This document shows, piece after piece, positions 8,887-46,497 of a DNA stretch of 47,552 nucleotides. A program made the position numbers and the translations under genes. The stretch spans positions 1 through 47,552 of the forward strand of contig JACDED010000018.1 of NCBI GenBank assembly GCA_013816615.1. The letters run 5' to 3'. Each line of letters starts with the position of its first letter. The stretch's first letter is position 1. The stretch comes from Bacteroidota bacterium (lineage in GTDB: Bacteria > Bacteroidota > Bacteroidia > B-17B0 > Aurantibacillaceae). The notes under the pieces are model-generated. The model saw nothing but the letters and a program-made list of their open reading frames with translations. It searched no databases and was not told the DNA's origin.

Positions 8887-8957
8887 TGCCCGATCGTCTA
8901 ATGGCAGGACTTCGGTTTTTGGTACCGACTATGTAGGTTCGAATCCTGCTCGGGCAA
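8887..8957 (+). tRNA. tRNA-Gln (anticodon TTG)
   Basis: The full cloverleaf can be drawn. The acceptor TGCCCGA pairs with TCGGGCA, the anticodon stem TCGGT pairs with ACCGA around the loop TTTTGGT (anticodon TTG), and the T stem GTAGG pairs with CCTGC around TTCGAAT. The discriminator is A; the 3' CCA is not encoded. An ORF that reads through this stretch in the plus direction is not a gene. Confidence 0.96.
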
Positions 8958-8960
8958 CAA

Positions 8961-9077
8961 CAAAACCCTCAGAGTTTACTCTGGGGGTTTATTGTTTTAT
9001 ATCGAAGAGAGAAAGCTTGCTTTTGCGATGAGATATAAAACAATAAACCACTTTTCGCGTTGGCGAAAAGGGTTTTG
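8961..9077. repeat. Nested inverted repeat (four-way-junction form) after tRNA-Gln
   Basis: Outer stem CAAAACCCT (8961-8969) pairs with AGGGTTTTG (9069-9077). Inner stem GGTTTATTGTTTTATATC (8986-9003) pairs perfectly over 18 bases with 9032-9049. Between outer and inner stems each side has its own hairpin: CAGAG-TTTA-CTCTG on the left (8970-8983) and CTTTTCGC-GTTG-GCGAAAAG on the right (9051-9070). The whole can fold as a cruciform or a branched RNA. The same plan follows tRNA-His at 15147-15261. Confidence 0.8.
8963..8990 (+). terminator. Terminator hairpin after tRNA-Gln
   Basis: AAACCCTCAGAG pairs with CTCTGGGGGTTT around a four-base loop (TTTA), with one G-T pair. T-rich sequence follows. 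It begins about six bases after the tRNA and forms part of the left arm of the larger nested inverted repeat. Confidence 0.7.
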
Positions 9078-9239
9078 CTGAGCATTAACCTTCATTTAGG
9101 ATCAGCGTAGCTAATCCTAAATAAAAGAACAGGCTTGCTTTCGCGATGAGATATAAAACAATAAATCATTTTCGCATTGGCGAAAAGGGTTTTGCTGAGC
9201 ATTAACCTTTATTTAGGATCAGCGTAGCTAATCCTAAAT
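9015..9239. repeat. Tandem direct repeat, two copies of about 108 bases (period 118)
   Basis: Copy 1 is 9015-9122 and copy 2 is 9133-9239. Each begins GCTTGCTTT(T/C)GCGATGAG and contains the right arm of the inverted repeat with its GCGAAAAG hairpin. Each ends with the hairpin ATTTAGGAT / ATCCTAAAT around CAGCGTAGCTA. The differences spare the paired bases: the hairpin loop reads GTTG in one copy and ATTG in the other while the stem is kept. No ORF is evident across 8990-9280. Confidence 0.85.
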
Positions 9240-9279
9240 GAATTATGTGAAATTTAAAAAGCGAAAGAGTTTATTTTTT

Positions 9280-22107: not shown

Positions 22108-23553
22108 TTAAAATTTCAGGTAAGGCATTAAACCATGCAAACCGCCTTCTCTTCCAAAACCACTTTCTTTATAACCGCCAAACGGAGAAGTAGGATCGAA
22201 TTTATTATACGTGTTTGCCCAAATAACGCCGGCACGTAATTTTGAAGTCAGGTTAAAGATCTTTGAACCTTTATCTGTCCATACGCCCGCACTTAAGCCG
22301 TAAGGAATGTTATTTGCTTTTTCAATTACTTCTTCAATAGTTCTAAAAGTTTGAATAGTTAATACCGGACCAAAAATTTCTTCCTGTACAACACGGTTAC
22401 TTTGAGCGGCACCAATAAATAATGTTGGCTTGCAATAAAAACCTTTTTTAGGAACAGAAGCGGAAGTTTGAAATAATTCCAATCCTTCTTTGCTTCCAAT
22501 TTTTAAATATTCGTTTATTTTATCTAATTGTTCTTTGCTATTTATTGCACCAATGTCAGTATTCTTATCTAATGGATCGCCAACAATTAATGTTTCCATA
22601 CGTGCCTTTAATTTTTGAATGACTTCAGCAGCAACATTTTCCTGTACAAATAAACGCGAGCCTGCGCAACACACATGTCCTTGATTAAAAAAGATACCAT
22701 TTACAATTCCTTCAACAGCTTGATTTATGGGAGCATCATCAAACACAATATTGGCCGCTTTGCCGCCTAATTCTAAGGTTGCTTTTTTATTAGTTCCTGC
22801 AATTGCTTTTTGAATTATTTTTCCAACATCTGTACTTCCTGTAAACGCAATTTTATTTACGTTAGGGTGCGCAACCATTGCTGCGCCGGTATCACCAAAG
22901 CCGGTGATGATATTTACAACGCCAGGAGGCAGATCGCAATCCTGTATGATCTCTGCTAATTTTAAAGCAGATAATGGTGTACTTTCAGCAGGCTTTAAAA
23001 CAACAGTATTGCCTGTTGCTAATGCAGGTGCTATCTTCCAGGCAGCCATTAGTAACGGAAAATTCCATGGAATAATTTGTGCAGCAACGCCTAATGATTG
23101 TGGATTACGATTTGGAAAAGCATATTCTAATTTATCTGCCCAACCTGCATAATAAAAAAAATGATTAGCAGCAGTTGGCACATCAAAATCACGGCTTTCG
23201 CGAATTGGTTTGCCGCCATCCATACTTTCAATAACTGCTAATTCGCGTGCGCGCTCTTGTATCACACGCGCAATTCTGAAAATATATTTCGCGCGTTCTT
23301 TAGCCGGCATTTTTTTCCAAACTTTATCGTATGCGTTTTTTGCAGAAGCAACTGCCAGATCAACATCTTTAGAATTAGCCTGTGCCACTTCTGCTAATTT
23401 TTCTTCAGTAGCAGGATTATATGTTGCAAAATATTTTTTGCTATATGGTTTTACAAATTTTCCATTTATAAAAAGATCGTATTGCGCTTTTAATTTAATA
23501 TGATCCTTAGCTTCGGGTGCCGGAGCGTACTCCCAGTTGAATTCTGATTTCAT
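22108..23553 (-). CDS. Aldehyde dehydrogenase family protein
   Basis: A 481-residue NAD(P)-dependent aldehyde dehydrogenase. Visible features are PWNFPLLMAAWKIAPAL, the Rossmann turn FTGSTDVGK, the general base in LELGGKAANIVF and the nucleophile in NQGHVCCAGSR. The C-terminal SPFGGYKESGFGRE is also typical. It follows deoC on the same strand (with a small cassette between), which suggests oxidation of the acetaldehyde that deoxyribose-phosphate aldolase releases, during deoxynucleoside breakdown. The substrate is inferred from the neighbour. Confidence 0.88.
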   Translation of the reverse strand: MKSEFNWEYAPAPEAKDHIKLKAQYDLFINGKFVKPYSKKYFATYNPATEEKLAEVAQANSKDVDLAVASAKNAYDKVWKKMPAKERAKYIFRIARVIQERARELAVIESMDGGKPIRESRDFDVPTAANHFFYYAGWADKLEYAFPNRNPQSLGVAAQIIPWNFPLLMAAWKIAPALATGNTVVLKPAESTPLSALKLAEIIQDCDLPPGVVNIITGFGDTGAAMVAHPNVNKIAFTGSTDVGKIIQKAIAGTNKKATLELGGKAANIVFDDAPINQAVEGIVNGIFFNQGHVCCAGSRLFVQENVAAEVIQKLKARMETLIVGDPLDKNTDIGAINSKEQLDKINEYLKIGSKEGLELFQTSASVPKKGFYCKPTLFIGAAQSNRVVQEEIFGPVLTIQTFRTIEEVIEKANNIPYGLSAGVWTDKGSKIFNLTSKLRAGVIWANTYNKFDPTSPFGGYKESGFGREGGLHGLMPYLKF

Positions 23554-23566
23554 TGTGTGTGTTTTA

Positions 23567-24082
23567 AGCCGCAGATTTCACTGATTTCACAGAGAATTGA
23601 AGCAATTACTTTGTTAATATTACTCTTTTGTATTTTAATGAACTTTCACCAAAATTAATTAATAGCCCAATTTTACACTTAGAAACCGCCAAATAATTAA
23701 TAGTTTGTTTTATATTTTCGTCAATAAGTAATGTTTGAGCTTTAATTTCAAGAATCACTTTGTTTTCAATAATGAAGTCTATGCAATAAAAATGAGGAAT
23801 TTTAATTCCTTCATAAATTATTTCAAACTTCTTTTCCTTCTGATAATTTATTTTCCTCTTATCAAATTCTATGCATAAACAATCCTTATAAACGGCTTCT
23901 AAAAATCCTCGTCCCAAGTTATTATATACATCCATTGCCGCGCCAATAACAGAATAGGTTAAAGAATTAATCCCTTCATTTTCATAAGAAATTAAAGGTT
24001 CATTAAGTTCATTTTGTGTATTTTCTTCTATTAAATAATTCATTTTAAATAAAAATCTGTGCAATCTGCGAAATCTGTGGCT
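23567..24082. mobile_element. Small cassette: GxxExxY gene between imperfect terminal inverted repeats
   Basis: The left end (23567-23593) starts AGCCGCAGATTTCACTGATT and the right end (24056-24082), read on the other strand, starts AGCCACAGATTTCGCAGATT. They match at 23 of 27 positions. Each end is built from three 9-base units close to CACAGATTT. The only gene inside is the GxxExxY CDS. The unit separates deoC from the aldehyde dehydrogenase. A pair of the same ends with no gene lies at 26351-26434. Confidence 0.6.
23606..24043 (-). CDS. GxxExxY protein, PD-(D/E)XK nuclease-like
   Basis: About 145 residues from the ATG at 24043; an upstream TTG would put the start inside the terminal repeat. 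The family motif is in GRGFLEAVY (G, E and Y spaced as named). Further on, CIDFIIENKVILEIKA has the D...ExK pattern of the PD-(D/E)XK nuclease fold (PDDEXK_3 group). The function of the family is unknown. It is common in Bacteroidota and often flanked by intergenic repeats, as here. Its orientation follows the host operon, so it may be transcribed from the deoC promoter. Confidence 0.85.
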   Translation of the reverse strand: MNYLIEENTQNELNEPLISYENEGINSLTYSVIGAAMDVYNNLGRGFLEAVYKDCLCIEFDKRKINYQKEKKFEIIYEGIKIPHFYCIDFIIENKVILEIKAQTLLIDENIKQTINYLAVSKCKIGLLINFGESSLKYKRVILTK

Positions 24083-24087
24083 AAATT

Positions 24088-24984
24088 TTAATCTATACTA
24101 ATATAATCCTTACTATAATAAACGCCTTTACTTTCTTTGCCTAATTGCAAAACAATATCGTTTGCCAGGCTACTTGCGCCAAACCTAAACCATTCATTGC
24201 TCATCCATTTTGGACCTAGTGTTTCGTTTAGCATTACTAAATATTGCAGGGCACTTTTTGCTGTAGAAATTCCGCCTGCGGGTTTCATGCCTATCATTAC
24301 ATTTGTTTTTAAGTAATGATCTTTTATTGCTTCTAACATTACTAATGTTACCGGCATAGTAGCGGCGGGTTGTATTTTTCCGGTAGATGTTTTTATAAAA
24401 TCCGCGCCAGCATGAATAGCAATATCGCTGGCCTTTCTTACATTATCTAAAGTAGACAGCTCGCCTGTTTCTAAAATTACTTTTAAGCGCGCTTTGCCAC
24501 AGGCTTTTTTAATAGTTGCTATCTCATCAAACACAAAATTGTAATTGCCTTTTAAAAATTCACCCCTACTAATTACCATGTCCACTTCATCGGCACCGCT
24601 ATCAACTGCTAATTTTGTATCTTCTAATTTTATATTTAAAGTTGAATTTCCACTTGGAAAAGCCGTTGCAACAGAGGCGATCTTTACCTGGCTGTCCTTT
24701 AAAACGTGTTTTGCAGTAGCCACATGGTTGGGATATACGCAAACGGCTGCCACGGTTGGCAATCCGGGTAGATCATCAGAAACATGCATCGCCTTATAAC
24801 ACATTTGTTTTACTTTCCCTTCAGTATCTTTTCCTTCAAGAGTGGTAAGATCTATCATGTTCAGAGCCAGTTTCAGACCGCTTAGTTTAGTGTCTTTTTT
24901 AATGCTCCGGGTATTAAAACGGGCAACGCGTTCTTCAATTCCTACCTGGTCAATAACGGGTGTATGTTTAAAATCTGGCGTCAT
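24088..24984 (-). CDS. deoC: DeoC, deoxyribose-phosphate aldolase
   Basis: Splits 2-deoxyribose 5-phosphate into glyceraldehyde 3-phosphate and acetaldehyde. The family motifs are clear: DEVDMVISRGEFLKG, the Schiff-base lysine in ADFIKTSTGK, and GMKPAGGI. I chose the ATG at 24984 (298 residues, starting MTPDFKHTPV). A longer frame begins with TTG at 25008 but adds only eight residues. It appears to head a minus-strand operon that runs through to pafA. The 90-base gap to the divergent GNAT gene should hold both promoters, but I see no exact TAnnTTTG there. Confidence 0.93.
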   Translation of the reverse strand: MTPDFKHTPVIDQVGIEERVARFNTRSIKKDTKLSGLKLALNMIDLTTLEGKDTEGKVKQMCYKAMHVSDDLPGLPTVAAVCVYPNHVATAKHVLKDSQVKIASVATAFPSGNSTLNIKLEDTKLAVDSGADEVDMVISRGEFLKGNYNFVFDEIATIKKACGKARLKVILETGELSTLDNVRKASDIAIHAGADFIKTSTGKIQPAATMPVTLVMLEAIKDHYLKTNVMIGMKPAGGISTAKSALQYLVMLNETLGPKWMSNEWFRFGASSLANDIVLQLGKESKGVYYSKDYISID

Positions 24985-25098
24985 AATTAATGATTTAAAT
25001 ATACTCAAATTTTAAAACTGTATTTTATAAATATTTATCGTTTTTATTAGGGAGTTTGTCTTACAGACACAAATTTAATTAGTAATTTTAGGTTAATT

Positions 25099-26350: not shown

Positions 26351-26434
26351 AGCCACAGATTTCGCAGATCGCACAGATTTAATTATTAATTAACAACAAT
26401 TAAAATCTTCTGTGAAATTTGTGAAATCTGTGGC
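26351..26434. repeat. Gene-less pair of inverted repeats matching the GxxExxY cassette ends
   Basis: The left end at 26351-26377 starts AGCCACAGATTTCGCAGATC and differs from the right end of the GxxExxY cassette by one base in 27. The right end at 26409-26434 is the inverted partner. The 31 bases between are AT-rich and hold no gene. The 84-base unit sits eight bases after the GNAT gene stop and 16 bases from the end of the aldehyde dehydrogenase gene. Confidence 0.7.
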
Positions 26435-46045: not shown

Positions 46046-46089
46046 GCGGTAATAAAAGTTAAAAGTTTTGAAAATTTAAAGATTGATTA

Positions 46090-46497
46090 ATGGCAAAAAT
46101 AAGTTCTTTTGAAGAGTTAGAAGCTTGGAAGAAGGCAGTAGAACTTTGTGAGCTGGTTTATAATCAAACAAATAATCCAACTCTAAATAAAGACTTTGCG
46201 CTTAGAGACCAATTAAGAAAATCAGCAATATCAATACCTTCAAATATTGCTGAAGGATTTGAAAGAGAAGGAAATAGTCAGTTCATTTATTTTTTAGTTA
46301 TTGCGAAAGGTTCTTGTGGAGAACTAAGAACTCAATTATATTTGACTCAAAAAATTGGTTATATTGATAATGAAACACATGAACTTTTGAAAGAAAAATG
46401 TATTACAATTAGCAAACAGTTGAGCAATTTTATAAAATATTTAAAATCGGCGCAGCAAAATTCTTCAAAACCTTCATCTTTAAAAACCTTTAATTAA
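46090..46497 (+). CDS. Four-helix-bundle protein (23S rRNA intervening-sequence type)
   Basis: A 135-residue protein of the four-helix-bundle family (TIGR02436 type), recognised by LEAWKKAVELCELVY, DFALRDQLRKSAISIPSNIAEGFERE and GSCGELRTQLYL. In many bacteria such genes occur inside 23S rRNA intervening sequences; in Bacteroidota they also stand alone. Here it separates paaB from paaC, which is not its usual place. Its stop is followed at once by the paaC ATG. The flanks look like imperfect inverted repeats (TTAAAAGTTTTG upstream; CTTCAAAACC and AAAACCTTTAA downstream), and the last ten residues are encoded in the right one. Confidence 0.85.
   Translation: MAKISSFEELEAWKKAVELCELVYNQTNNPTLNKDFALRDQLRKSAISIPSNIAEGFEREGNSQFIYFLVIAKGSCGELRTQLYLTQKIGYIDNETHELLKEKCITISKQLSNFIKYLKSAQQNSSKPSSLKTFN

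Follow-up and report, generated by a model that had tools for sequence, protein, structure and literature searches.

GxxExxY nuclease genes lie between inverted arrays of spaced 7-bp units and may belong to a dispersed-repeat system of bacteria

In the REPIN-RAYT system the gene of an enzyme, a tyrosine transposase of the HUH Y1 type, is tied to dispersed inverted extragenic doublets that carry no gene, and RAYT genes are flanked by their REPs. RAYTs are described as single-copy, vertically inherited and domesticated (PMC8049555), and the REPs of E. coli have conserved mismatches in their stem (PMC8266576). The IVS of 23S rRNA is a short element with one small ORF (S23/IVP ORF), which lies inside 23S rRNA, is excised from the RNA by RNase III and is described as selfish in Coxiella (PMC4990558). 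Gene-bearing and gene-less forms with the same ends, together with presence/absence differences, are features that the elements described here have in common with MITEs and IS.

GxxExxY is a common annotation for which we know of no function. Within 5.39 million open-access papers the name was found in two, in passing only. No description of GxxExxY arms or of a repeat system was found in this open-access literature, subscription papers and preprints being outside it, neither five repeat words nor TIGR04256 turned up there, and among the matches listed for intergenic palindromic repeats and nucleases nothing concerned the GxxExxY family.

The window, i.e. the whole analysed stretch of 47,552 nucleotides, is contig C7 of a 4.68-Mb genome in 246 contigs, and its features are collected in Table 1. 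The names of the deoC-like and ALDH-like genes were given by recognition, as in the preliminary description. An inverted-repeat search of the window paired positions 23564-23593 with 24056-24085 (30 nt, 83% complementary), and the upstream flank of the gene, compared with the reverse complement of its downstream flank, scored 35, where the 99th percentile of shuffled flanks was 27. This confirms the 27-bp imperfect inverted repeats which the preliminary description had seen on both sides of a GxxExxY gene. Its three units per arm were also confirmed, and for the CACAGATTT-like unit it had proposed there is a better reading, in which each arm is GC followed by three 7-bp CRCWGAT units with 2-bp spacers. 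The gene does start just inside one repeat: a gap of 11 bp separates its ATG (24043) from one arm, and another of 11 bp separates its stop codon from the other arm. However, over 54 loci the distance from the last unit to the ATG had a median of 31.5 bp (quartiles 7-65), so that the tight packing in the window is not general. With 137.2 bits against the TIGR04256 GxxExxY profile (cut-off 35) and 129 bits against the PF13366 PDDEXK_3 profile (cut-off 22) the gene is a member of the family, in agreement with the PD-(D/E)XK-like motif noted earlier.

Table 1. Positions of the GxxExxY element and of further features in the window.
Feature	Position	Strand	Remarks
GxxExxY (PDDEXK_3) nuclease gene	23606..24043	-	145 aa; candidate catalytic D89, E99, K101
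Arm, gene 5' side	24055..24081	-	GC-CACAGAT-tt-CGCAGAT-tg-CACAGAT; outer end 24081; sequence GCCACAGATTTCGCAGATTGCACAGAT
Arm, gene 3' side	23568..23594	+	GC-CGCAGAT-tt-CACTGAT-tt-CACAGAG; outer end 23568; sequence GCCGCAGATTTCACTGATTTCACAGAG
Gene-less arm pair, AGAT family	26352..26434		arms 26352-26378 (+), 26408-26434 (-); loop 29 bp; convergent ORFs either side
deoC-like gene	24088..25008	-	flanks site; adjoins ALDH gene in element-free species
Aldehyde-dehydrogenase-like (ALDH-like) gene	22108..23553	-	other flank of site
23S_rRNA_IVP four-helix-bundle gene	46090..46497	+	PF05635 match 46111-46425

Between the window arms no further ORF of at least 80 aa was found beside GxxExxY, and no known transposase family, the only matches being those to TIGR04256 and PF13366. 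A location in 23S rRNA was ruled out for the window element, which sits between the deoC-like and ALDH-like genes; in difference to the IVS, the GxxExxY elements have protein genes as neighbours and contain a gene of nuclease type. An Rfam scan of the window at gathering threshold gave two tRNAs only, none at the element. Nested inverted repeats at 8986-9242 adjoin a tRNA gene (8887-8957); these have 35-nt arms with GGATCAGCGTAGCTAATCC, in addition to repeated ...TTTATATC / GATATAAA... palindromes.

The preliminary description had staked its reading on repeat ends at other GxxExxY genes and on empty orthologous sites. TIGR04256 was present in 36 of the 41 genomes searched, and 125 distinct loci were sampled, 116 from those genomes and 9 from named contigs. 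About ten partial or weak matches were left out (e.g., G031:C72:122420, G031:C23, G010:C325, G018:C26, G022:C20, G024:C45, G029:C13, G031:C40 and G034:C3), and six loci with too short a flank (L057, L062, L073, L075, L076, L077) were dropped from the arm test. Significant matching inverted flanks were found at 94 of the 119 testable loci, compared to 6.4% of 1179 mispaired flanks and 1 of 26 deoC control flank pairs. A chance origin of the arms is rejected by the shuffled flanks, the mispaired flanks and the deoC controls. The remaining 25 of 119 loci lacked significant inverted arms, some named loci having direct repeats or none.

The genome of the window has seven GxxExxY genes, one with an internal deletion. 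All seven, whose end repeats the preliminary description had proposed to check, have inverted arms above the shuffled 99th percentile (scores 31 to 48), and the unit differs from gene to gene: CGCTGAT/TATGAT, CACAGAT, CACTAAG, CACATAG, TACGAAT, ACGGATT/ACAGATT and CACTAAT, on reading. Among the named contigs, those of Chryseobacterium (62), Verrucomicrobia (50) and Ferruginibacter (28) scored over 27, Chloroflexi L069 and Ignavibacteriales L071 stayed below, L075 begins inside the gene, and with shortened flanks scores of 60 (L076, Anaerolineae), 46 (L073, Bacteroidetes) and 28 (L077, Anaerolineae) were obtained. In a plasmid collection GxxExxY matched 8 of 72,556 records, all 8 typed non-mobilizable. 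From this set of 8 the loci of Bernardetia (36), Gemmatirosa (116) and Bacteroides finegoldii (45) passed the arm test, the Sphingomonas locus has clear CGCGAAG arms on reading, with the second arm inside the 3' end of the ORF, the Treponema locus has an 11-bp arm and the Persicobacter locus no repeat arms. In the GxxExxY genes of Prevotella nigrescens and a Fusobacteria plasmid (L225, L226) the flanking repeats are, on reading, direct and not inverted. A single IMG/VR contig carries GxxExxY (flank score 43). A phage origin was rejected: 50,697 phage records gave no match to L076, and no PHROG was found for L076 or the window protein.

The arms share a common architecture of 7-bp units, mostly two to four per arm, with a spacing that is specific to the type, e.g., 1,2,3 bp for the CACTAAG type (L057, L116; also L100 with CACGGAG) and 2,2 bp for the CACAGAT type. 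A unit class could be assigned in 104 of the 125 loci. Spacer lengths were equal between the two arms in 40 of 54 loci (within-class shuffles: mean 23.5, maximum 34), counting those loci in which two or more units were recognised in each arm, and only the spacers common to both. At 54 of 97 loci the nearest non-syntenic protein shared the unit class (permutations: mean 12.4, maximum 25), and at 52 of 97 when it had to come from another genome; part of the disagreement is between near types, e.g., CACGGAG 1,2,3 beside CACTAAG 1,2,3. Judged from these comparisons of sequence, the gene and its arms have diversified together, though not strictly, and the agreement between clade and unit can stem from common descent of gene and arms.

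The second point, the empty sites, was examined at the deoC locus. Of the 40 genus genomes 36 had a deoC orthologue, and 30 of these loci were compared on reading. Here 15 sites are cleanly empty, with arm-free gaps of 11-73 bp, among them the 36-bp gap of G007, the closest relative, whose deoC is 97% identical. The gene with arms is present in three (G000, G051, G018), and in G003 the contig ends in arms while the gene, with the same arm, lies on contig C93 (L062). Four sites are decayed, with a stop and a deletion in G041, a broken gene in G022, arms and the last part of the gene in G053 and a single unit in G012. Gene-less palindromes of other types occupy the site in G050 and G008, other sequence in G014 and G002, and in three of the 30 loci deoC is not followed by the ALDH gene. 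Outside the 30, G011 also has a GxxExxY gene at the deoC site. The site of L003 is filled in G045 and empty in G019, G021, G006 and G053; G012, first counted as filled there, was rejected, the insert being an unrelated gene, presumably HAD-like by recognition. In Sphingomonas parapaucimobilis the element lies between fabD and fabG and is absent in S. paeninsulae, and in Bacteroides finegoldii it lies between radA and an FAD gene and is absent in Parabacteroides distasonis; the radA-FAD interval of Phocaeicola massiliensis holds an unrelated gene. The end repeats that had been suggested for inspection were thus found, but no target duplication was seen at the orthologous sites read, where the intergenic sequences of the relatives are too divergent to call one.

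The preliminary description had further proposed a mobile unit of 516 bases. In G031 two copies of the gene (L107 and L118) lie at unrelated loci and are 94% identical over the domain and 89% over the ORF. On one side their homology begins some 14 bases, rich in A, beyond the outer arm, and on the other side it fades shortly after the arm. Movement of a gene-bearing unit is supported, at the level of sequence, by this one pair. Within the genus, 69 loci fell into 28 synteny clusters, of which 14 are single loci and 14 have at least two members, by single linkage via common neighbours, which may merge sites. The types CTAAT (7 of 7 labelled loci), CACTAAG (4 of 4) and TACGAAT (4 of 4) are each confined to one cluster, the deoC-site cluster is CACAGAT in 4 of 4, and the site of L001 holds 5 of the 6 loci with its CGCTGAT type. 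CACATAG and the G-ending types occur at several sites, and three synteny clusters are mixed. With one arm type per site in these clusters, several gene types are residents which were often lost, and what disperses most are the gene-less copies. The mobile 516-base unit was therefore only partly right, as several gene types keep one syntenic site within the genus.

An ordinary insertion-sequence-like transposon, with the nuclease as its transposase, would account for a gene between inverted ends, for gene-less derivatives, empty sites and the copy pair of G031, and half of the genus synteny clusters are single loci. Against this, several types are fixed at one site in the genus, the ends are multi-unit arrays, the fold is PD-(D/E)XK, and, in difference to MITEs and IS, neither a known transposase nor a target duplication was seen, which makes this explanation very improbable. 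By analogy, REPIN-RAYT seems the better parallel, with a resident enzyme gene and dispersed gene-less copies, although the residence of RAYTs is matched by four GxxExxY arm types at one site and not by the CACATAG and G-ending types, nor by the 14 of 28 clusters that are single loci. We lean slightly towards the view that GxxExxY and its arms are a dispersed-repeat system which works like REPIN-RAYT with an unrelated enzyme. The differences are that this enzyme is of the PD-(D/E)XK type, that each arm consists of several 7-bp units with spacers of set length and that no GTAG/CGTC foot tetranucleotide was present at the copies read, which have outer ends AGCC...GGCT or AACC...GGTT.

Gene-less arm pairs are abundant in the genus. 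The 27-base AGAT arm pattern gave 461 hits in 24 of 40 genomes and no control hits, the CTAAT pattern was found in 22 of 40 with four control hits and the CACTAAG 1,2,3 pattern in 15 of 40 with none. Copies were commoner where a gene of the same type was found (p 0.006, 0.0003 and 0.003; 25 genomes, one-sided Mann-Whitney), in a test that makes no correction for relatedness, includes the two arms belonging to each gene itself and scores G008 as lacking the gene, since its AGAT-labelled gene has another spacing and no copies. However, AGAT copies were also numerous where no intact matching gene was found (47 in G021, 39 in G022 with a decayed gene, 31 in G019 and 25 in G007), and these genomes count against the REPIN-RAYT-like reading. 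Copies at seven sites (L017, L018, L020, L025, L027, L028, L030) are missing in at least one relative read, and at L024, L025 and L033 they are present in some. Relatives have elements of other types at L012, L018, L030 and L033, and at one site G007, G045 and G006 carry the CTAAT type but G000 the AGAT type.

The position of the copies raises the question of a host function. Among 15 gene-less copies of G000 there was none within an ORF of at least 90 codons; 10 have the 3' end of an ORF no more than 25 bp away, and 8 are flanked by convergent ORFs. In addition, the window gene-less copy would fold very stably as RNA (-39.1 and -37.8 kcal/mol for the two strands, z -10.4 and -7.1), and element-free sites can hold ordinary hairpins, as read at L028 in G006 and G053 and at L001 in G007, G006 and G053, the latter three having been rejected as gene-less versions of the element. 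All this would fit arm pairs that are structural elements of the host, such as transcription terminators or stabilisers of mRNA 3' ends, with the nuclease gene being incidental. A promoter/terminator scan of the window found nothing above chance, though, and called neither window element terminator-like, and a terminator role leaves the arrays of equal units, the set spacing and the link to the nuclease clade unexplained.

The arms themselves also speak against such a host structure. In the 10 of 14 AGAT gene-less copies that were parsed, the complementarity of a copy's own arms was 0.475 for spacers and 0.705 for units, compared to 0.542 and 0.745 for mispaired arms, i.e. the two arms of one copy match each other no better than they match the arms of other copies. 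A requirement for a perfect hairpin was rejected on this ground. At the second base of the middle unit own arms are even less complementary than those of other copies, one arm having A and the other G in 18 of 20 pairs where about half is expected. The two differ there in 15 of 18 pairs of a second, overlapping set and in 20 of 26 (12.9 expected) when out-of-register pairs are included; the CTAAT (15) and TAAG (4) pairs are too few to decide the question. Strand-specific G-U pairing was dropped, as the sign of the A/G difference is inconsistent along the arms on reading. We therefore consider the host-structural explanation improbable.

Because own arms are not extra complementary and the second base of the middle unit differs, the data argue for a recognition of the units as sequence words, in two ends that are not identical, and against the upkeep of a perfect stem. 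Against this word reading stand the stable RNA fold of the window copy and the gene-bearing loci, where own arms exceed mispaired arms in spacer identity (0.467 vs 0.344) and in unit identity (0.923 vs 0.880), which speaks mildly for pairing or shared descent. The mismatches in the stem of REPs offer a loose parallel to the position at which the two arms differ here.

The AlphaFold model of the window protein had a pLDDT of 89 and a pTM of 0.82. The closest solved fold was SSO0001 (4ic1; Foldseek E 4.2e-4; Z 9.3 over 101 residues, rmsd 4.3), which we take to be a Cas4, and other folds, including BamHI and Hjc, reached a Z of 7.5 or less. D89 and K101 are conserved in 115 of 115 proteins, E49 in 114 and E99 in 111. 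With a conserved D...ExK in a matching predicted fold the protein can be placed in the PD-(D/E)XK nuclease superfamily. dN/dS was 0.025-0.153 in the 10 of 13 pairs that were computable, with several dS above 1, so that the values are rough; the gene appears to be under purifying selection and kept for the action of its product. The likeness to Cas4 extends to L076, which matches Cas4 profiles weakly (E 4e-4). In difference to Cas4, however, the window protein had no match to the PADLOC models at E 0.1, and neither had L074. No CRISPR gene was recognised near the window gene in the ORF list of the window. A sequence search of PDB chains, which bears only on the PD-(D/E)XK families in the VIA rows, matched Csn2 at E 0.84-0.89 only, and this was taken as noise.

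A second family is flanked in a similar way. PF05635, the 23S-rRNA-IVS four-helix-bundle family, was found in 21 of 25 genomes searched, and among its best 30 matches 27 were testable, 15 of which had matching inverted flanks made of other short units (mispaired 2%). The copy in the window is outside these 27; its flanks (46048-46077 and 46459-46488, 73% complementary) are one of many weak pairs in the window and may be at chance level. Since flanks are alike in 15 of 27 PF05635 loci, repeats of this kind may spread without the help of a nuclease, and the PF05635 arms would point either to a parallel system or to a weaker case for the nuclease requirement.

The same observation favours another explanation, in which some other machinery (an unrecognised transposase, or recombination/repair) spreads the arms as mobile or host-regulatory palindromes, and GxxExxY as well as four-helix-bundle genes came along as cargo or settled there later. 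It would account for the orthologous site of L003, where G000 and G045 have GxxExxY and G007 has a PF05635 gene, for the different element types at common sites (CTAAT in G007, G045 and G006, AGAT in G000) and for the abundance of arm copies in some genomes that lack a matching gene. We regard it as rather unlikely, as it has to face that arm type and spacing track the nuclease clade, that copy number tracks the presence of the matching gene, that the catalytic-type residues are conserved and that an unsystematic reading of loci noticed no other enzyme within GxxExxY-type arms.

For a system of the REPIN-RAYT kind the following course can be envisaged. The nuclease would read the unit arrays and cut at or near the ends of arm pairs, and repair or replication by the host would then copy the short palindrome into sites at gene ends, with no obvious target duplication. 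The gene-less copies would be non-autonomous, served in trans, and may persist for some time past the loss of the gene. Going further, we tentatively suggest, with somewhat less than even confidence, that GxxExxY is the enzyme of an undescribed class of dispersed repeats in several bacterial phyla, in which a lone nuclease, PD-(D/E)XK in type and Cas4-like in fold, recognises the spaced 7-bp array that belongs to it in two inverted ends of unequal sequence and causes gene-less palindromes to spread, and that PF05635 proteins operate a parallel system of the same design, so that two widespread families would be connected. Each member of the GxxExxY family gains a concrete candidate substrate, its own arm array, and it can be predicted which arrays a given protein should read. 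The finding also accounts for a large set of intergenic palindromes. If it is true that the enzyme spreads the arms, this would be a repeat-mobilising system on a restriction-type nuclease fold, with potentially many mutually independent pairs of protein and DNA recognition.

Some loci have a more complex arrangement. Tandem arms lie on each side of the GxxExxY gene in G003 (C93, 17-789; loci L292-L304), with two on one side of the gene and three on the other, and at L174 (the deoC site of G051). On the plasmid of Gemmatirosa kalamazoonensis (L220) palindromes with CGCAGAG units lie on both sides of the gene and resemble complete gene-less copies. The loops of CTAAT gene-less pairs are rather constant in length (84-133 bp in 15 pairs), and those of the AGAT type measure 11-50 bp in 17 of 18 pairs. 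In G008, which also carries a gene of the same type (L090), many CTAAT arms are identical in sequence (GCCACGAATTACACGAATTTCACTAAT and close variants), and this identity suggests a recent burst.
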